A stretch of DNA of 24,987 bases. Origin: a virus. The stretch is taken from positions 1 through 24,987 of IMG/VR virus record IMGVR_UViG_3300028827_000078; one strand, written 5' to 3'. Below, piece by piece: positions 4,363 through 17,072 of the stretch. The notes under the pieces were generated by a model. The model worked only from the letters and a program-made list of their open reading frames with translations, did no database searches and was not told where the DNA came from. A program made the position numbers and the translations under genes. The first letter of the stretch is position 1; the number at the start of each line of letters is the position of its first letter.

Positions 4363-5250
4363 CTAGAGAAGTAGCCCCGCCAAGAGCCCCACTCCTCCAC
4401 CGACAGCCGACCCCACACCAAGGACCGACCCAAGCCGAGCGCCCTGCAGCCCAAGTCCAATGGCCGACTGCAGGCCGCCCCCTCCACCACGCGCGGCCAT
4501 CGCCGTCGTCTGCGACATCCCTCCAGGCAGCCCGAAGAGGATGTTCGCGTAATTGGCCAGAGCGATGTCCCTCGCGTCTTGAGAGAAGGTCTCCTGCGCG
4601 TTCTTCGCCTCGAGTTCCGCTTGCGCTTGCTGCTGCCGCTGCTGCCCGACTCCAGACTCAATCAGCCCCGGAACTGCGGCCATCTTCGCCGTCTCGGGCG
4701 CCAACCCCAATATCCTCAGATACGCTTGCAGCCCCCTCTGGTACGCATCATTGGCCATCCGCGCGCCGATGTTCCCCGCCTCTCTCATCGACGCCTCGCC
4801 GATCAGCCCTTCCGCGACGCCCTGCCGACTGCTCCCCACGTTCCCCGTCAGCATCGCCGAGCCCCGCACGGCCGGGAGCAGCTCCGTAGACACCTTCCGA
4901 AATATCGGATCTACCGCCGCGGAGATCGCGCCCTGAACCAGCTCCGAGTTCGGGTCCAATAGTTGAGGAATCAGCTCTCGATTCGTCCCAAACAGCAGAT
5001 CCGCGTAGTTCCGGATAGCTCCAGCCGCCGGCCCTGCGAGCTCGTTCTGAGCTTGCACTTGCAGTGGGTCGAACCCAGCGACCAACTGGTTGGGAAGTCG
5101 CGCATTCAGGTTCTCCCTGTACGCCTGCTGCGCGCCCCTCGCCAATTCCTCATAATACGGCATCCACTCTGGGAGTGGACGGTCCACCACGGACGTGACT
5201 GCGGGCTTCTCCTTCCTTCCTCCACCAAAGAGCTTGCTCAGAAACCCCAT
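4363..5250 (-). CDS. Putative DNA ejection / internal virion protein
   Basis: A 295-residue protein starting at ATG 5250, overlapping the preceding stop as TAATG. It begins MGFLSKLFGGG, continues as an alanine- and glutamine-rich helical body including a QRQQQAQAELEAK segment near residues 205-220, and ends in a glycine/alanine/leucine-rich hydrophobic tail (about 255-295) with a glycine-zipper look able to span a membrane. This layout, and the place between tail genes and giant internal proteins, resembles injection proteins of environmental podoviruses. No enzymatic motif is visible. The assignment rests on context and composition. Confidence 0.75.
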   Translation of the reverse strand: MGFLSKLFGGGRKEKPAVTSVVDRPLPEWMPYYEELARGAQQAYRENLNARLPNQLVAGFDPLQVQAQNELAGPAAGAIRNYADLLFGTNRELIPQLLDPNSELVQGAISAAVDPIFRKVSTELLPAVRGSAMLTGNVGSSRQGVAEGLIGEASMREAGNIGARMANDAYQRGLQAYLRILGLAPETAKMAAVPGLIESGVGQQRQQQAQAELEAKNAQETFSQDARDIALANYANILFGLPGGMSQTTAMAARGGGGGLQSAIGLGLQGARLGSVLGVGSAVGGGVGLLAGLLL

Positions 5251-5891
5251 TATCCTACCCTCTCCACAAGGAAGTCTAGCCGAAGCAAGTTCTTCGTGCT
5301 TCCCGAATCCTGGTACACTACCGGCTCCACGTAATCGTTAGAAGAGACGGACGTAATCATCCAGCCCGCTCCTCGAATTATGTCCTCGAACGTCGCGACC
5401 CAATTCGCCGTCCCATTCTTGCTGAACCCAATCCAACCTGTCTTCCCTGTCCCTACATCCTCCATCTCCCCCGCGACCGACACCTTTATCCGCGCCGTTT
5501 CCCCAAAGGTAATCCTTCCTCCTGACCCCCACCCGAACGGGTCGTACCACTCAATCATCCCACTCGGGACTATCACCGTCCCAGTCGAGAGCGCCTCCGC
5601 GCTCCCCAACGACGTGCCCCAAAGAAGCATCGGCTGGTTGAGATTGATGAACGCTCCATTCTTATGTCCATACAACCCCCAACCTCCCGAGGCCCAAGAC
5701 TCATCCCCGTCCGAACTCCATCTCAAGTCTCCCTCTTGCCCCTTTATGTCACTCTCCCGCACCTTGAGACGAATGGACTCAAACTCCGGCGCACGCAGCG
5801 CCAGGGACACTGACGTTAACTCCTCCTCCACATACCGCCGGAGCTCCTCAACTCCGCCCTCCGGCGAAGGGAACGGACTGTACGCGGTCAC
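5250..5891 (-). CDS. Putative tail-associated virion protein
   Basis: A 213-residue protein. The start is GTG at 5891, overlapping the preceding stop as GTGA, with GGGGAGA about six bases upstream. The N-terminus (EELRRYVEEELTSVSLAL, residues about 15-32) is a helix of a type common at the start of short phage fibre or neck proteins. The remainder is Gly/Trp/Ser-rich and likely beta-structured, with a WSSDGDESWASGGWG stretch. No named family is recognised. It follows the nozzle-like protein directly and precedes the ejection proteins, so a tail or tail-tip role is inferred. Confidence 0.7.
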   Translation of the reverse strand: MTAYSPFPSPEGGVEELRRYVEEELTSVSLALRAPEFESIRLKVRESDIKGQEGDLRWSSDGDESWASGGWGLYGHKNGAFINLNQPMLLWGTSLGSAEALSTGTVIVPSGMIEWYDPFGWGSGGRITFGETARIKVSVAGEMEDVGTGKTGWIGFSKNGTANWVATFEDIIRGAGWMITSVSSNDYVEPVVYQDSGSTKNLLRLDFLVERVG

Positions 5892-7477
5892 CAGATTCTC
5901 CCCGTCAGCTCAAGCTCTAAGAGATACCCTTCCAACTTCCACGCCTGATTCCCACTTGACTCGAACCGAATTGAGTGCAGCCGATAGGAAGGAATCCACA
6001 CCGGAATGCTCTCATCTACTCCAATCTCGAAGCTCCAAGGACCATGCCATGTGATGGACCCCCCTGCCTCACTCTGTCCCCCAACGTACACCTGCACGGT
6101 TCCCGTCCCCGTAAACCGCGGCATGATGCGCTTCAGAAGCTTCCAAGAGGTCGCATCCCGTAAGAGATTTCCATACCTATCTAAGACGTACCCTATCTCC
6201 GTTCGTTCCAGAGAGCAGGACATGTCTGCCCCATTCATCTGCTCTCCATACTCTGCCATCAGGAGCTTGGAGTTCGCTGCAGACGCCTGAACGAGCCGCC
6301 GGATCGTAGGATTATACTCCCTCTCATCGATGATAGTCATCATCTCATCGATGACTGTGGTAGTCATCCCATCGATGAAGCTCGGCGACGCTCCCGTATC
6401 CAGCACTCCCCGCGCGGCGTGGACGACTGAACTCAATTCCCTCACGCCCCACTTATCTTCCCTCACATTATACACCAACGCGAGAGTGCACTCCGACTCC
6501 CCAGACTCAGGGAAGCACACCCACACCTCCTGAGTCTCATCATTCGCCACCACGAAGGAAGCCTTCAAGTTGTCATTGTCCACCGTATTGAACAACCACT
6601 GCCGAAGCTTCCCCCTAAGTATACTCTTTATCGACCTCCCTTCCACCTGCACCACATCGTCATACCCAAGGGCAATCTGCCGAATTGGCGAGTACACCTG
6701 AGTAACGCAGTGTGGGGCGAAGATCCCGAACGCCCGACTCAAGTACTCGAAGTTGTACACGAACGTTCGTCCGACGTAAGTCATCGCGACGACTGCATCT
6801 TCCTTATACACCACATTGACCTGCCCCATGGACATCATATCCACCACATGTCCGGGCGTGTCTGCGAGGTCCTTCTCCCCCGTCAACTTCGTCGGATCTG
6901 TCTCGTCCCACGAGTCCGGCAGTGTCCCTGGGTCCGCGACGCTGGACCACTTGACCAACTGTGGGTACCTCGTCGAGTCCTTCGTCACGTCCCCCACAAT
7001 TAGCTGATTTAGATGAGGCCGCAGCACTCGACACCTCATCGTGGTCACTCCTGAGGGCGGCCAGTTCGTCAAGTCCGCGAACTTGACCCCCGTATCTCCT
7101 CCCCAATACTGCGGATTGTCGTTCGGATTGCTCACCACCACAACGCCGCTCAGGACTCCTCCAGTCCACTTCTCCCCCACTGTGGCATTGTACCCACCGA
7201 CCTTCGACAGATCCGTCGCCGACGACCCGTCATGCACGTATATCGCTGACAGCCCGCAATACAGCCAGAACTGATGAACCGGCGTCACAAACGGAATCAG
7301 ATAGTACGGCTTCACCGCCGTCGGCGAGTATACCTCAATCTCGCCCTTCGACTTGACCGCCGCCCCATCCCGGAACACCACATTCCGCGCGTTCGTCCAC
7401 GCATTTATGGGAAGTTCCCTCGGCATGGGGTCCTTCACAACCCCATACTGACCCGCCGGTGTCACGTCAATCAGCAT
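5888..7477 (-). CDS. Putative tail nozzle / beta-propeller-type tail protein
   Basis: A 529-residue protein. I place the start at ATG 7477, whose ATG overlaps the preceding stop (TGATG); a TTG lies one codon upstream. The N-terminus contains a segment of the type WTNARNVVFRDGAAVKSKG (residues about 28-46), a pattern of large podoviral tail proteins that begin with a 'new variable from input data' style beta-strand region. The protein is beta-rich throughout, with many Val/Thr/Trp/Gly strands and no catalytic motif. Size and location just after the fibre genes and before ejection proteins fit the tail-tube nozzle or plug proteins such as T7 gp12 or P22 gp10. That equivalence is an inference from architecture. 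A small in-frame repeat occurs near residues 367-386. Confidence 0.75.
   Translation of the reverse strand: MLIDVTPAGQYGVVKDPMPRELPINAWTNARNVVFRDGAAVKSKGEIEVYSPTAVKPYYLIPFVTPVHQFWLYCGLSAIYVHDGSSATDLSKVGGYNATVGEKWTGGVLSGVVVVSNPNDNPQYWGGDTGVKFADLTNWPPSGVTTMRCRVLRPHLNQLIVGDVTKDSTRYPQLVKWSSVADPGTLPDSWDETDPTKLTGEKDLADTPGHVVDMMSMGQVNVVYKEDAVVAMTYVGRTFVYNFEYLSRAFGIFAPHCVTQVYSPIRQIALGYDDVVQVEGRSIKSILRGKLRQWLFNTVDNDNLKASFVVANDETQEVWVCFPESGESECTLALVYNVREDKWGVRELSSVVHAARGVLDTGASPSFIDGMTTTVIDEMMTIIDEREYNPTIRRLVQASAANSKLLMAEYGEQMNGADMSCSLERTEIGYVLDRYGNLLRDATSWKLLKRIMPRFTGTGTVQVYVGGQSEAGGSITWHGPWSFEIGVDESIPVWIPSYRLHSIRFESSGNQAWKLEGYLLELELTGRIW
6324..6378. repeat. Triple TCATCGATGA repeat inside the nozzle-like gene
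   Basis: TCATCGATGA occurs at 6324-6333 and 6345-6354, and CCATCGATGA at 6369-6378, spaced 21 and 24 bp, so the reading frame is preserved. The unit is its own reverse complement. On the coding strand it encodes a run of short Ile-Asp motifs (FIDGMTTTVIDEMMTIIDERE). Confidence 0.75.
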
Positions 7478-8307
7478 CAACTAACACTCCCATACACCGA
7501 GCCTTGCGGGTCCCACGTGACTGCACGTCCGTTCAATCTCACCGCTCTGCCAGGGCTTCCCCCCGCCAACCCAGTAGATTGATAGAGTCGATAATAGTTC
7601 GAGGACGGTAGGTCCATGTAATACCCACTTCCTCCCGTCTGACCCGCGGCGCCAAGTCCGCCACCGTCGCCGCCGTACCCACAGTGGGAATTGTTCCCCT
7701 CACCATACGGAACTGACGGACCGCCGGAACCTCCAGCTGTGGCACTGCCCGCGTTACCTGCGACTCCATAGCCCGGCTTCGCTCCAGGAATGTCGTTATT
7801 TCCAGGGCTACCACCAAGTCCGTACCCAGCACCGCCACCGCCTCCGCTACCAGAGCCAGCAGACCTCGTACTGAAGAACGTACCTGCGGAGGAGCCTCCA
7901 CCCCCACCTCCACCACCGCCGCCTCCAATCGTCCCTGAGTTGGCGACCGTGAGGTCGAAGTCGAGCAGGATAGCGTCGCCTCCATCTCCCCCCACCTGCC
8001 CTCCATAAGCAGACGACTGGCCCGCACTTCGTCCCGTGCCTCCGGCGCCACCCTTTCCTACGACATACCCCTGATTCACCAACGTAATCACCGACCCTGT
8101 CGGCCAGGACCCCGTCCGCAACGCCGGAGATCCCGTACTCGCTGACGATACGATTACACCAGGACTAATCGTAAACGTCGCAAGCACAGGCCCCCCTCCA
8201 TACCCATTGGCATCTGCCAAGGACCGAAGGTCCACATTCTGCATGTTGGACGAGATGGTGTACGAGAACCTCTCGTACCCATCCCCAAGATGATGTGCTC
8301 CGAACAT
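7477..8307 (-). CDS. Glycine-rich tail tip / receptor-binding-like protein
   Basis: A 276-residue protein from ATG 8307, overlapping the preceding stop as TAATG. Residues about 1-80 are beta-rich. Residues 82-230 are dominated by glycine: a run of 11 glycines at 128-138, a GSGSGGGGGAG block near 151-161 and further GG pairs. The last 30 residues (AVRLNGRAVTWDPQGSVYGSVS) resemble the closing segment of phage host-specificity proteins. Glycine-rich blocks of this sort form polyglycine-II lattices in some phage adhesins, for example T-even gp38-type tips. I infer a receptor-contacting tip; exact family not established. Confidence 0.75.
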   Translation of the reverse strand: MFGAHHLGDGYERFSYTISSNMQNVDLRSLADANGYGGGPVLATFTISPGVIVSSASTGSPALRTGSWPTGSVITLVNQGYVVGKGGAGGTGRSAGQSSAYGGQVGGDGGDAILLDFDLTVANSGTIGGGGGGGGGGGSSAGTFFSTRSAGSGSGGGGGAGYGLGGSPGNNDIPGAKPGYGVAGNAGSATAGGSGGPSVPYGEGNNSHCGYGGDGGGLGAAGQTGGSGYYMDLPSSNYYRLYQSTGLAGGSPGRAVRLNGRAVTWDPQGSVYGSVS

Positions 8308-8924: not shown

Positions 8925-9557
8925 TCACCTCATTTGATTCAGCATGTTGACCTCCCCGCGCGCGATGTTCTTGTCCTTCAACCGCTTCCGCGCGATGGCC
9001 AGATCCGTCTCGAACTGCTTCCTCGTTCGCTCATCCTTGAGGTACTCCCCACTGATCACCATCCCCAACTCAGCGATGAGCACGTCCGCCGCGTACGTAC
9101 TCCACTCGTTCGTCACCCCCGTGGCCGGCGCCGTGTCCCTCTTGTAGTACACCAACCGCACCTCATACGCCGCGTCCGGAGTCGGGAACAAGTAGATATA
9201 CTTCCCCCTTATCGTATACCACTCCGGCTCCCCTTCCTCCGTATTCAGGTACGTCCGTCTCAGTCGGTCGTACTCATCCTTCTTCAGCTCCTTCTCCGTC
9301 CCATCGCCCTTCACGAGGAACAGCGCGCCCTCTTCCAACTCCATCAAGAAGTCGGAAGGGAGCTCCAACCTCGGCTCAGACTGCGTCACCTCTCCGTCCG
9401 CCCGCTCCGAGATTAGGAACCACGGCGGATCTGGGGCTTCCTCGAGACGCCCCTGGAGCATCTTCAACTCCAGGAGCGCCGCGGACGTCAACCCGCTGTC
9501 CCCGCTCCGGTTCCCACACCGGTTCAGGACCAGCGTCACCACCTCATCGATAGTCAT
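8925..9557 (-). CDS. Head-tail adaptor protein (SU10-like adaptor)
   Basis: A 210-residue protein from ATG 9557; the Shine-Dalgarno is weak. It has an N-terminal helix, a segment of the type WFLISERADGEVTQSEPRLELP around residues 45-67, then DEYDRLRRTYLNTEEGEPEWYTIRG and a strand rich in IYLFPTPDAAYEVRLVYYKR, and finally an Ala/Leu/Glu helical C-terminus. This order (DLRLP-type strand, LRR-T helix, W-Y-x-x-x-G strand, LFPxP strand, helix) is the pattern of podoviral adaptors that dock below the portal. Length is normal for the family. Portal and adaptor are separated here by head, lysis and fibre genes. Confidence 0.8.
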   Translation of the reverse strand: MTIDEVVTLVLNRCGNRSGDSGLTSAALLELKMLQGRLEEAPDPPWFLISERADGEVTQSEPRLELPSDFLMELEEGALFLVKGDGTEKELKKDEYDRLRRTYLNTEEGEPEWYTIRGKYIYLFPTPDAAYEVRLVYYKRDTAPATGVTNEWSTYAADVLIAELGMVISGEYLKDERTRKQFETDLAIARKRLKDKNIARGEVNMLNQMR

Positions 9558-9560
9558 GGC

Positions 9561-10136
9561 TTACGCGCTCGTCAGGCTTGGGTCCACCTGCACATTCAGC
9601 GTGTCGCCATTCTGCACCGACCGAACCGCGCTGAATGCCGTCTCCCCATACAGCACGTTGGCCACGCCGCTCGTCGTGTCGCACAGGAACGCCCCGTAGA
9701 TGCTCGCCGTCGCATTGATCGCGAAGCTCGCCTTCGAGTTCGAGTTCGACAGCTGGCCGTTCGACGCCGCGCCGTTCGCCACCCACTGCGGCCGGTTCCC
9801 CGAATACGGCGTCGCCTCACTCCACCCATTCGTCCCGCCGATCTGCGCCCCGGTATCACCCGCGGCCAGGGTAGGCGCCGGGGAGTTGTCGATCAGCCCC
9901 ACGTACCACGCCGCCTTCGGAGTCTGATTCCTCAGCGACACGTCCAGCTGATAGTTTCTCCCTTCCGTGGTGAAGAGGTTCTTCACTCTCTCGACCCACT
10001 TCACCTTCCCGTCAGGACCCACACACTCGATGGTGAACACGCTCCCGCCGATCCCATCCAACGGCACTGCCGACCTCATCACCAGGTCCGCCTGCGCTCC
10101 GACGTCTCCATCGACTCGAATCACATTCTCGCTCAT
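9561..10136 (-). CDS. Putative virion structural protein, beta-rich
   Basis: A 191-residue protein from ATG 10136 with GAGG about eight bases upstream. The middle (TPKAAWYVGLIDNSPAPTLAAGDT, then GWSEATPYSGNRPQW) matches a sequence style I recall from widespread phage structural proteins of unknown role. The rest is Ser/Ala/Asn-rich beta structure. It sits between the LamG-repeat protein and the adaptor. Function unknown; a decoration, fibre-base or tail component is possible. Confidence 0.7.
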   Translation of the reverse strand: MSENVIRVDGDVGAQADLVMRSAVPLDGIGGSVFTIECVGPDGKVKWVERVKNLFTTEGRNYQLDVSLRNQTPKAAWYVGLIDNSPAPTLAAGDTGAQIGGTNGWSEATPYSGNRPQWVANGAASNGQLSNSNSKASFAINATASIYGAFLCDTTSGVANVLYGETAFSAVRSVQNGDTLNVQVDPSLTSA

Positions 10137-10146
10137 CGCTCCAACC

Positions 10147-11754
10147 TCAGTTCCACGTACTGCTCGCCGGCCCCTGAGCCGTCCAATTACTCGTTAATGG
10201 GCTTCCCTCAACCCACGATCCACTCACACCTCCATCCGGCTCCCAAAGCAACCTCTCTCCCACTCCCATCGAACCTGCCCCCGCGACTCCAATCCCGTCC
10301 GTCTGGCTTCCCGTCCCCACCACTACCACACTCTCACTCCCTCCCACTCCTACCACCACCCCATACGCACCCTGCACATCAACTCCGACCAACTCCCCAC
10401 CATCCACACCGACCACATTAAGCAGCACTCCCTCTGGGCTCAGCCCCAAGCTGCCAATACCTCCCACGCCCACGCTTCGCTCAATGACCGCGCCTCCCGA
10501 CACGACCACCACACCACTCTCCCCAATCCCGACCACCACGTCCCCGATCCACGCGCCCGACACCGACACCGTGCCCTGCCCGTCCATCGCCGCCGTGACC
10601 GTCCCTTCCCACACAGCGCCGACATCGACTCCCTCATTCCCTCCAATCCCAACTCCCTCTCCCTTGACCGCGCCGCCAGACAGCCCCAGGCTCTCACTTC
10701 CTCCAACCCCCACACCCTCCTGCAGATCTAACCCACCAATTAGACCTACCGCCCCGACGCCGTCCACACCAGCGCCCAGATCCAAGGTCAATACATTCCC
10801 CGCCACTAAGCTCTCTACCCCTCCAACTCCCACGCCTCGGTCGAAGACTCCAACATTCCCCACTCCAAGACCTTCACTTCCCCCAATTCCCGCCAAGCCG
10901 AGCATCACCAAGTCCGCTCCCAGTCCCAGGCTCTCACTCCCTCCTACTCCCACGCTCCCCGACATCACCGCCGCGGATCCCAAGCCTACCGACTCACTCC
11001 CCCCGATTCCCACAGACTCGCTGTACGTTCCTCCCGGTAGGAAGATCGTGCGCTTCGGCTGCCAGTACAAATCCCAGCGAGTCTGTGGGTCAAAGTCGGC
11101 CCAAACTTCATACTCCGACCAAGGACGCAACACATGAACTGCGTCGAACATCTCTCCATTCAGTGAGTATGACGTCGAACTGAGATTGAATCCACAAAGA
11201 GCCGAGAAGTAGTACACCCCAGTCAGCGTCCCCGACGTAGCAAGCTTGCCGTCGATGTACACCTTCAAGCCGTTCGTAGTGGCATCGTTCGTCACCACGA
11301 ACCGGTGCCATGTGTTCAGCGAGATCGAGGGGACGGTCAAACTGACGTAAGTTGCGTCCGTTCTGGAGTAGAGCGTCGTGGCGGTGTAGATTAGGAGATA
11401 GTAGATCGACGATGCTGCGATGTGTCCGCACAGCACGCAGTTGTATGCGTTCAGGTAAACCCACGCGGCGAACGTCGTGGGAACCTCTACTCCCTGCAAC
11501 GGCACCGTAAGCCGGTTGCCGTCAGTTCCATCCTGCCTCCACACTCTCCCGTCAATCTGCGAGCCGACCTCAACGCTGCCAGTTCCATTCGCCGTAATAC
11601 GCTCGTTAGCAGCCAGCTCGCTCAAATGTCCCGGAGCACAAGTGTAGAGCCGGCTCAGCAGGTGCGCACGAGGGCACTCCCAATTCAGCAGGAGGCTGCC
11701 ACGAGGCGGCCGAGAACCGATGGCCCTCGTGCGCGATGTCCGGATCGAAATCAC
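10147..11754 (-). CDS. LamG-like tail protein with C-terminal 20-residue repeat array
   Basis: A 535-residue protein. The start is GTG at 11754, overlapping the preceding stop (GTGA) with GGAG five to six bases upstream. Residues about 55-215 look like a concanavalin A/LamG jelly roll: a strand entering FAAWVYLNAYN, a TWHRFVVTND segment, LKVYIDGKLATSG, and an FDAVHVLRPWS strand. Residues about 216-241 (WADFDPQTRWDLYWQPKRTIFLP) resemble the end of LamG phage proteins, after which a second domain is appended. Residues 247-506 form 13 gapless repeats of exactly 20 residues with consensus VGVGGSESLGLG. A short Trp/Ser tail ends the protein. LamG domains commonly bind glycans, so a host-surface role is inferred. 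The repeat region is probably a beta-solenoid or stalk. Confidence 0.8.
   Translation of the reverse strand: MISIRTSRTRAIGSRPPRGSLLLNWECPRAHLLSRLYTCAPGHLSELAANERITANGTGSVEVGSQIDGRVWRQDGTDGNRLTVPLQGVEVPTTFAAWVYLNAYNCVLCGHIAASSIYYLLIYTATTLYSRTDATYVSLTVPSISLNTWHRFVVTNDATTNGLKVYIDGKLATSGTLTGVYYFSALCGFNLSSTSYSLNGEMFDAVHVLRPWSEYEVWADFDPQTRWDLYWQPKRTIFLPGGTYSESVGIGGSESVGLGSAAVMSGSVGVGGSESLGLGADLVMLGLAGIGGSEGLGVGNVGVFDRGVGVGGVESLVAGNVLTLDLGAGVDGVGAVGLIGGLDLQEGVGVGGSESLGLSGGAVKGEGVGIGGNEGVDVGAVWEGTVTAAMDGQGTVSVSGAWIGDVVVGIGESGVVVVSGGAVIERSVGVGGIGSLGLSPEGVLLNVVGVDGGELVGVDVQGAYGVVVGVGGSESVVVVGTGSQTDGIGVAGAGSMGVGERLLWEPDGGVSGSWVEGSPLTSNWTAQGPASSTWN
10237..11016 (-). repeat. 13 tandem 60-bp units encoding 20-residue repeats
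   Basis: Starting at residue 247 of the LamG-like protein, the motif x-V-G-V-G-G-S-E-S-L-G-L-G recurs every 20 residues with no insertion or deletion: glycine or its substitute falls at residues 251, 271, 291, and so on to 491. Units 1, 2, 3, 6 and 12 are closest to consensus. Units 7 to 9 are the most diverged. Nucleotide identity between units is much lower than the protein periodicity, so this is an old, selected repeat and not a fresh expansion. Confidence 0.85.
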
Positions 11755-13850: not shown

Positions 13851-14228
13851 TCAGTAACTCCACACTCTATAACCCAACAGATCCAGATGGAGAAACCGCG
13901 AGCCCCACCTTCCTGTCTGCTTCACTCCAATTCCCTTCACTCCTCTCTCGATCGCAACCTCCATCAACCTCCGCGCCGCAGGCCCGGCGATGGCCACGTC
14001 CACCGCCTTGCCCGTCGTGTGCGGCCCGTCCCGTCCGGTGTGTGACACCCTCTCGTTCCAATCCGGACAGCGGAACGCGCTCGTTAGCACCATCGGCTCG
14101 TCGAACTCTTCCCTCACTCGCACAAGCCACTCCATGAACCCAGGGTCCATGTCCGCGCGCCCGCACTTCCCGCAGTGACACATCAACTCCCCATGAGAGA
14201 AGAAAGGCCAGCTAACGTCCTTACCCAC
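13851..14228 (-). CDS. M15 family peptidase, probable endolysin
   Basis: A 125-residue protein. The start is GTG 14228, reading GTG GGT AAG with GAGG and GGGAG upstream. The N-terminus has a C-H-C-x-x-C cluster (C17, C19, C22). The Peptidase M15A pattern follows: TSAFRCPDWNERV, then GPHTTGKAVDV with H70 and D77, and FLHLDL with H114 and D116. These positions match the zinc ligands and catalytic aspartate of this D-Ala-D-Ala carboxypeptidase-like family. The enzyme cleaves peptide cross-links in peptidoglycan. It is single-domain with no cell-wall-binding module, of normal size for the family, and is followed at once by the holin gene. Confidence 0.88.
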   Translation of the reverse strand: MGKDVSWPFFSHGELMCHCGKCGRADMDPGFMEWLVRVREEFDEPMVLTSAFRCPDWNERVSHTGRDGPHTTGKAVDVAIAGPAARRLMEVAIERGVKGIGVKQTGRWGSRFLHLDLLGYRVWSY

Positions 14229-14883
14229 GCTCCCACACCTCTCTCAATCCATAAGGATACGTGCCCATATGCCGTACCCATTCACTCAACCCCTTGTCCA
14301 CCCAAATTCGCTCTCCCACCTCCTCTCTCCACTTCCGACAGAACCACACATCCTCCCCCATGTACGCCCCTTCTTCCTCCACCCACTCCATCTTGAACCG
14401 AGGCGCGGACATCCTCATCCCAATCTCAAGATCGATCAACGCCACAGCAAGTCCGACGTGCGCGACCTCCACCAAACCCTTGCTTCCCTTCCTCCACACA
14501 ACCTCCTCTTTCCCCACGCCTCGTGCGGCGACCCTCGCCTCCTCCCTTCTCTTCACCACTCCAGCCGCGGCCACGAAGGGCTTCCGCCACTTCGCCAACC
14601 TACTTATCGTATCCTCTGGGAACACCATGTCCGTGTCCAAGAACAGGACATGCGTCACTCCCGCCTCCAAAGCTCGAACCCACAGCCGCTCCCTGTTCTG
14701 ACTCAGCATCGACCCCTTCGACTGAATCATTGTAATAAGGAGCTCGTTCACTCCGGGAATAGGATACCGCCACGCCTTCAACAGCAGCTTTCCCAAACAG
14801 AACCCAAAGTCCGCATTCCACGTCCCTCCACTCGGGATACATACCGCGACGCTCATCCTCAAAGGTGACCTATATCTCTCCAT
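14221..14883 (-). CDS. Glycosyltransferase, GT-A fold (family 2-like)
   Basis: A 220-residue protein from ATG 14883; an alternative ATG nine codons on, at 14856, gives the more typical start MSVAVCIPSGG. The HVLFLDTDMVFPEDTI segment contains the metal-binding DxD at D83-D85. Residues about 174-181 (YMGEDVWFC) correspond to the acceptor-side ED motif, and H205 to the C-terminal His of GT-A enzymes. The product would transfer a sugar from a nucleotide sugar to an unknown acceptor, such as host surface polysaccharide or a virion protein. It stands alone among structural and lysis genes. A TATAAT and an AGGTACCT box overlap its start region. Confidence 0.8.
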   Translation of the reverse strand: MERYRSPLRMSVAVCIPSGGTWNADFGFCLGKLLLKAWRYPIPGVNELLITMIQSKGSMLSQNRERLWVRALEAGVTHVLFLDTDMVFPEDTISRLAKWRKPFVAAAGVVKRREEARVAARGVGKEEVVWRKGSKGLVEVAHVGLAVALIDLEIGMRMSAPRFKMEWVEEEGAYMGEDVWFCRKWREEVGERIWVDKGLSEWVRHMGTYPYGLREVWERG

Positions 14884-15839: not shown

Positions 15840-17072
15840 TCACACCACGAAGTTGCCGTGATAGGCCATCGTCTTCAGGTGATGGAACTCGAAGCCGATC
15901 TCGCCCATCCACTGACCCTTCCTCGTGTCCGCGTCGTTCGCCTGGATGTTGTCCTTGAAGCGGACGGCACGGTACGGGCGCTCGACGATCGCCCGCGGGT
16001 TGATGAAGAAGGCGCTGTTGGTGAACAGCGAATGGACGTTGAACAGCGGGTGCGTCCGGAGATACAGCGTACCCTGCGGCAGCACCCACCGCTGCAGCTG
16101 CATCCCATACACCTTGACGATGCCGTCGAAGTTGATGCGGGTCGACGAGGAGTTCCGCGCCAGCTTGTTGAGGGAATTCAGGTACCCATTCCCACACAGG
16201 CCGATCCGCTCGTTGCTCCCCGTCTCGGCGCCGCGGTAGTCCCACATCTTGTACGTCGCATCCAGGAGCTCGTCCTCCGTCGGAGTCGTGGTCCAGATGC
16301 GGACGACGTGGGTCGCGCCGCCGTTCACCTTCGCATCGCCGAGGAAGTGGCGCAGTCCACCGGTGTACCGCTTGGGCTTCCCGTTCGACCCCGTGCCCTC
16401 GTAGGGCTTGCCGAAGAACGACGCGAACTCCATGTCGACCGCGAAGTCGAACATCTTCCGCTTCTTGTCGTTCTGGACGGGGTTGCCCGTGCGGGTCGCC
16501 ACCGGCTTGGCCGCCGAACCGGTGAGCTCGTAGGCCCGCTTGAAGATCTCGCAGTAGTTCGTGTACTTCGTCGGATTCCGGGTCGTGGAGTCCGGCGAGG
16601 TCGTCCCTTCCGCGAACACCGACCCGACGCGAGTCAGGTAGGTGTTGTCCGCGATGGTCCCCGCGGTGGTTCCCGCGACGCCCCGAGTCACCACCACCGT
16701 GGTGGCGTCGGTCACGGACACGACCTCCAGCAGCTCGTTGTCGTACTCGCCCGTCTGGTTCTCGGTCGACTTCTCCACCAGGAGCAGATCACCGGCCACC
16801 AGCTCACGCGCATCGCCGTTGTCCACGTTGATGGTCGTGGCCGTGGTGGTGATGCCGGACGCGTTGTTCACCTGGAGGCGAATCGGACCCTGCTCCTCCT
16901 CCCACCAGTTGAAGTCCGGCGTCGGCGGCTCCTCGCTCCGCATCTTGGCCATCAGGGCCTGCAGCGGAGCGGCGCCGTTCGGCTCTCTCCACAGGATGTA
17001 CTCACGGAACGACTGCGGCCGCTCATCCGTGCCGAAGTCGCCCGTGCCTCTCAGTCCAGCGATGGTCGTCAT
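15840..17072 (-). CDS. Major capsid protein, SU10/DUF5309-like HK97 fold
   Basis: A 410-residue protein from ATG 17072 with GAGGTGAG immediately upstream. It has an N-terminal arm (about 1-60), then a beta-strand-rich insertion (about 70-155: SGITTTATTINVDNGD, AGDLLLVE, ELLEVVSVTDATTVVVTRGVAGT) typical of this capsid family. The remainder has HK97-like strands and helices (FKRAYELTG, KRKMFDFAVDMEF, FGKPYEG, KPKRYTGGLRHFL) and an aromatic C-terminal strand. Size, location after the scaffold gene, strong ribosome binding site and the following hairpin all fit a highly expressed major capsid protein. Confidence 0.85.
   Translation of the reverse strand: MTTIAGLRGTGDFGTDERPQSFREYILWREPNGAAPLQALMAKMRSEEPPTPDFNWWEEEQGPIRLQVNNASGITTTATTINVDNGDARELVAGDLLLVEKSTENQTGEYDNELLEVVSVTDATTVVVTRGVAGTTAGTIADNTYLTRVGSVFAEGTTSPDSTTRNPTKYTNYCEIFKRAYELTGSAAKPVATRTGNPVQNDKKRKMFDFAVDMEFASFFGKPYEGTGSNGKPKRYTGGLRHFLGDAKVNGGATHVVRIWTTTPTEDELLDATYKMWDYRGAETGSNERIGLCGNGYLNSLNKLARNSSSTRINFDGIVKVYGMQLQRWVLPQGTLYLRTHPLFNVHSLFTNSAFFINPRAIVERPYRAVRFKDNIQANDADTRKGQWMGEIGFEFHHLKTMAYHGNFVV

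Follow-up and report, generated by a model that had tools for sequence, protein, structure and literature searches.

Among described phage proteins, the closest counterparts of the protein analysed here carry arrays of GIxSxExxG repeats grouped in PHROG 13352, of which gp31 of mycobacteriophage Damien, gp88 of mycobacteriophage Marvin and Virus Rctr197k_090 are named examples. Pfam has no model for GIxSxExxG-type arrays and a literature search found no paper describing these repeat motifs, which makes the wider array family of more interest than the single protein reported here. Phage proteins with a Laminin_G_3 domain (PF13385) form another point of reference, and most of them are without such an array. 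Phage fibres are usually trimers, and many phage fibres and spikes have triple beta-spiral or triple-stranded beta-helix folds, while the head repeats of YadA complete a turn in 14–16 residues.

The window examined is the whole of IMG/VR virus record IMGVR_UViG_3300028827_000078, a stretch of 24,987 bases. On its minus strand (positions 10147–11754), a gene with a GTG start that overlaps the upstream stop predicts a 535 aa protein that combines a LamG domain with a repeat array.

Genomic context of the array gene

The array gene lies inside the structural gene block, between genes for an SU10-type major capsid protein (15840–17072, minus strand; PF17236, E 3.8e-34) and an SU10-type tail adaptor (8925–9557, minus strand; PF24175, E 3e-12). 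Profile matches to a large terminase subunit and to phrog_3287 were also obtained in the window. The downstream neighbour of the array gene (9561–10136, minus strand) is assigned to phrog_8123, and the same slot can be recognised elsewhere by homologues of this gene. The phrog_3287 product (5888–7480, minus strand), a virion structural protein that is nozzle-like by position, was used as the query for finding relatives and matches proteins of Microcystis phage Mel-JY34 (35% identity) and of Bjorn/PaP3-type Pseudomonas podoviruses (31–33%). The phage is short-tailed and podovirus-like. The corresponding region of Mel-JY34 encodes an unrelated 864 aa protein. A peptide-pattern search found no close relatives of the window protein, a pattern for one repeat unit matched only by chance, and phmmer found no match to the protein in the PDB. 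Searches of cultured phages by tblastn with the full protein, the array or the LamG part gave no match, a result to be read with the caveat that low-complexity filtering may mask Gly-rich queries.

Three further genes, all on the minus strand, merit mention. The product of 7477–8307 includes long poly-Gly stretches and a match to PF05268, the T-even tail-fibre adhesin Gp38 (E 6.6e-15), and is likely a second receptor-binding protein of this podovirus-like phage. The product of 14221–14883 was judged by eye to be glycosyltransferase-like, and in Mel-JY34 (L002) and L018/L019 its homologues likewise adjoin the capsid gene. An otherwise unannotated protein predicted from 5250–5891 contains one GIxSxExxG-like stretch, LGSAEALSTGTVIVPSG.

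Periodicity and coding constraint of the array

The array occupies residues 247–506 (10237–11016, minus strand) and consists of 13 units of 20 aa. An initial sequence-only reading of this DNA had proposed that these residues repeat every 20 without insertion or deletion, and this is confirmed by an identity of 91/240 at lag 20, whereas 10,000 shuffles averaged 38.1 (sd 5.2) and never exceeded 59 (z ∼10). Identity is also raised at lags 40 and 60, and weakly at lag 10. The signal is stronger at lag 60 (z 7.8) than at lag 40 (z 6.4), which might reflect a super-repeat of three units. Taken column by column, the 13 units give the consensus [GS]VG[VI]GG-S-[EG]-S-[VL]-G-[VL]-[GS]-..., with Gly in 12/13 units at both positions 3 and 6, and Val, Ile or Met in all 13 at position 4. 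Hydrophobic residues are fixed at positions 4, 10 and 12, and glycine makes up about one third of the array.

A search for DNA tandem repeats found nothing at period 60, as units that resemble each other only moderately escape detection at this level. Identity between units at the three codon positions is 0.57/0.49/0.34, against 0.49/0.30/0.32 expected, and codon pairs that specify the same residue in different units are identical at a rate of 0.369 (0.338 expected). Synonymous sites are thus saturated between units while codon position 2 is conserved, which indicates that the repeat is old at the DNA level and has been kept by selection on the protein.

A 217 aa open reading frame on the opposite strand (10484–11137, plus strand) overlaps the array, as would be seen if the array's own frame were an artefact of GC-rich DNA. 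The chance of this is negligible, as the codon-position pattern fits the minus frame, the same frame includes the Pfam LamG match, and gene order is kept in relatives. The array is a genuine coding repeat in the minus frame. The 217 aa frame is itself read as a by-product of GC-rich repeat codons.

LamG domain and junction with the array

Residues 90–182 (11209–11487, minus strand) match the concanavalin A-like Laminin_G_3 family, PF13385, at E 3.8e-8 and 34 bits, above the curated gathering cutoff of 27.6, with the LamG fold itself probably reaching as far as residue ∼240. The placement of this match ahead of the array supports the initial description of a LamG phage protein with an array appended to it. 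The arrangement recurs in other array proteins: in two of them, L044 and L065, Laminin_G_3 immediately precedes the array with a junction similar to that of the window protein, and the domain was present in 7 of the 56 other array proteins scanned. The LamG part found no match among the array proteins by phmmer.

Relationship to GIxSxExxG arrays

IMG/VR was scanned for open reading frames in which G[IV]xxxExxG recurs at intervals of exactly 20 residues, at least three times. At least 118 were found, 9 of which were set aside as low-complexity or unlikely, and among the matches listed gapless exact-20 runs reach 13–14 units in L073, L138 and L047. In the same matches, the spacings outside the selected triples are 22 (96 cases), 20 (95) and 23 (68); spacings of 20, 22 and 23 are tolerated within one array. 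The uniform spacing of 20 in the window falls in the 20–23 residue range that also holds the PHROG 13352 spacings of 20, 22 and 23. It therefore represents the regular extreme of spacings that are already known, and the view in the sequence-only reading that an exact 20-residue spacing sets this array apart was mistaken. Each of the 56 array proteins used for comparison has a match to phrog_13352, 'minor tail protein', and a consensus query also finds GIxSxExxG arrays in cultured mycobacteriophage genes annotated as minor tail proteins and in Virus Rctr197k. A separate feature was seen on IMG/VR contig L038, where a CRISPR-like direct-repeat array at about 7000–7150, read as repeated GIPTREDDG, lies beside a transposase-like open reading frame.

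The likeness to GIxSxExxG repeats that the initial reading had pointed out proved to be real. MAFFT, with no register supplied, aligned window units 1–7 with 28 IMG/VR array fragments over 140 columns without a gap, and the Gly, Ile/Val, Glu and Gly columns coincide. In a composition-adjusted BLASTP comparison of the array with 109 array proteins, the best match was L044 (49.7 bits, E 3e-9), aligned over 112 residues, gapless and in register. This score was reached by none of 400 column-permuted arrays, in which composition and period are kept, and by none of 400 shuffled arrays. Tests with position-specific scoring matrices gave p ∼0.007–0.02 for the GIxSxExxG and combined profiles. The repeat is thus present in relatives; its absence from all of them was the outcome that the initial reading had named as speaking against it.

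Profile methods, the weaker tests, disagree, and this is where a case can be made that the array is unrelated and that its Gly/hydrophobic beta-turn pattern arose by convergence. Searched at E up to 1, the profile of PHROG 13352 found nothing in the window protein. Neither a bias-corrected HMM nor hhalign (P 0.09–0.15) gave significance for the window array against GIxSxExxG arrays, with some column permutations scoring higher. Ser/Thr at motif position 4 is missing from 13/13 units, with Gly in 12/13 and Glu in 1/13. Convergence is nevertheless considered unlikely, given the in-register BLASTP match that no period-preserving permutation equalled and the LamG-array order and junction shared with L044 and L065. 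As judged by sequence comparison, the window array is related to PHROG 13352 without being a formal member, and can be regarded as a GIxSxExxG array of divergent, Gly-rich type.

C-terminal Trp tail and gene slot

The protein ends in a tail with Trp at residues 504, 514, 524 and 534 (10153–10245, minus strand), a spacing of exactly 10 that the initial reading did not mention. A second phage repeat class, GVxxTGxVG, came to light in scans for units like those of the window; its units are 20 or 22 aa long. A Trp-rich C-terminal tail, defined by three or more Trp in the last 70 residues, is present in 84/124 proteins of this class, and a regular tail is a feature that the window protein shares with them. 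The arrays themselves gave a best BLASTP score of 28.1 bits, which 52 of 400 permutations equalled, and the scoring-matrix test for the GVxxTGxVG profile alone was not significant. Unit length and Trp spacing showed no connection, as arrays of 20-aa units have a spacing of 5 or 11.

The combination of an array and a Trp tail recurs in the same gene slot. Homologues of the product of window 9561–10136 flag this slot in L035 and in Vibrio phage vB_VspS_VS-ABTNL-3. In L035, the gene directly upstream of this homologue (160–1770) predicts a 536 aa phage protein that is almost wholly composed of 20-aa repeats of the DSLTLSDS type and has a tail with Trp spaced by 10. In the cultured Vibrio phage the order is capsid gene, PVS_14, phrog_8123-like gene and adaptor-like gene, and the predicted PVS_14 protein shows weak periodicity at 21 residues (z 3.6) and has Trp at 302, 312 and 323. 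The slot therefore carries different arrays of similar design. L036 combines 22-aa repeats with a Trp tail. It is possible, though we hold it only tentatively, that the GIxSxExxG, GVxxTGxVG, DSLTLSDS-type and Gly-rich window forms are variants of one exchangeable, Trp-capped beta-solenoid rung of 20–22 residues, a general phage stalk module that is unnamed in Pfam.

Predicted structure of the array

AlphaFold with the single sequence of the whole protein gave a pLDDT of 34, and most of the array scored under 50. When units 1–7 were modelled with 29 in-register sequences, one model reached pLDDT 55 (25–38 for the other four) and pTM 0.47, and placed strands around unit positions 15–4 and 8–10, recurring about every 20 residues. 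VIA-align matched this model to the SufD beta-helix (Z 11.1, rmsd 2.3 Å over 140 residues) and to 3lyc (Z 11.0), values to be read with the caveat that repeats with Z below about 13 may share only a common arrangement; a similar entry, 3ljy, bears the title 'putative adhesin'. Foldseek searches of the PDB and BFVD with the array model returned nothing at E <0.001 (PDB E above 0.3). The model thus favours, at low confidence, a one-chain beta-solenoid with 20 residues per rung.

The low single-sequence pLDDT and the high glycine content would also be compatible with a flexible, mostly disordered Gly-rich linker that has no regular fold. This is very improbable, as no indel has accumulated in 13 units despite synonymous saturation, constraint is focused on codon position 2, and linkers do not hold hydrophobic residues in such a fixed register.

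The beta-solenoid and the trimeric stalk had been put forward together as alternatives, and it is the solenoid-like fold that the modelling of single chains favours, at low confidence. In the trimeric form, the array would be a homotrimeric fibrous stalk, a triple beta-spiral or triple-stranded beta-helix in which each unit contributes one strand-turn-strand layer per chain. The usual oligomeric state of phage fibres, the strict indel-free period with alternating hydrophobic residues and the lack of a confident monomer fold from the single sequence all fit such a stalk. However, the monomer model built with in-register relatives, itself of low confidence, forms one-chain 20-residue rungs like those of solved beta-helices, and relatives mix spacings of 20, 22 and 23 in one array, which solenoid loops absorb easily. 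The trimeric stalk is accordingly given a minor share of the probability, and is doubtful rather than improbable. A resemblance to the YadA head, also suggested earlier, found no support: the units have a loose SVxIG-like look in common with YadA head repeats, but the period is 20 and no YadA Pfam family matches at E up to 1.

Proposed role of the protein

The reading that we consider probable, with appreciable room for others, is a LamG adhesin of the virion, mounted on a stalk with a beta-solenoid fold, in which the array is a divergent Gly-rich GIxSxExxG form and the Trp repeat caps or anchors the rod. The gene product would be a surface protein of the short-tailed virion. To judge from the fold family, glycans of the host or the environment are the most likely ligands of its N-terminal LamG/concanavalin-like domain. 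Each 20-residue unit would probably form one rung of a parallel beta-solenoid, with Gly-rich turns between beta segments, and the 13 units (260 residues) may build a rigid rod, keeping the lectin-like domain at a distance from the particle. A cap or an anchor for this rod is the probable role of the C-terminal Trp repeat; the orientation of the LamG head, stalk and Trp end is likewise putative.

If this is correct, a very common unnamed phage repeat gains a predicted fold and a role in spacing out lectin-like domains, and stalk modules of uncultured phages can be sought by their unit length, register and Trp tail.

Comparison with known systems

PHROG 13352 arrays and the window array have in common a Gly-[IV]-x-x-x-Glu-x-[hydrophobic]-Gly core, a 20-residue register and a multi-unit array, and PHROG 13352 arrays sometimes stand behind a LamG domain, as in the window protein. 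They differ in that Gly replaces Ser/Thr at position 4 in the window, position 6 is Glu in 8/13 units and Gly in 5, Val/Leu follows the second Gly, and the PHROG 13352 profile misses the protein; a further difference is that the window phage is podovirus-like. The GVxxTGxVG arrays, found in tail-fibre/baseplate-type proteins of uncultured phages (IMG/VR L158–L286), resemble the window in their 20–22 aa units, in Gly at positions 1 and 9 and in the near-regular C-terminal Trp tail, but their Trp spacing is mostly 11 or 5 rather than 10. PVS_14 of the Vibrio phage shares the gene slot and a Trp spacing of 10–11, but its repeat sequence differs and no LamG domain is apparent by eye. The protein type is already known and only the details, namely the divergent repeat, are new. 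For the window protein itself, the best explanation is a virion adhesin of a known type whose stalk has diverged.
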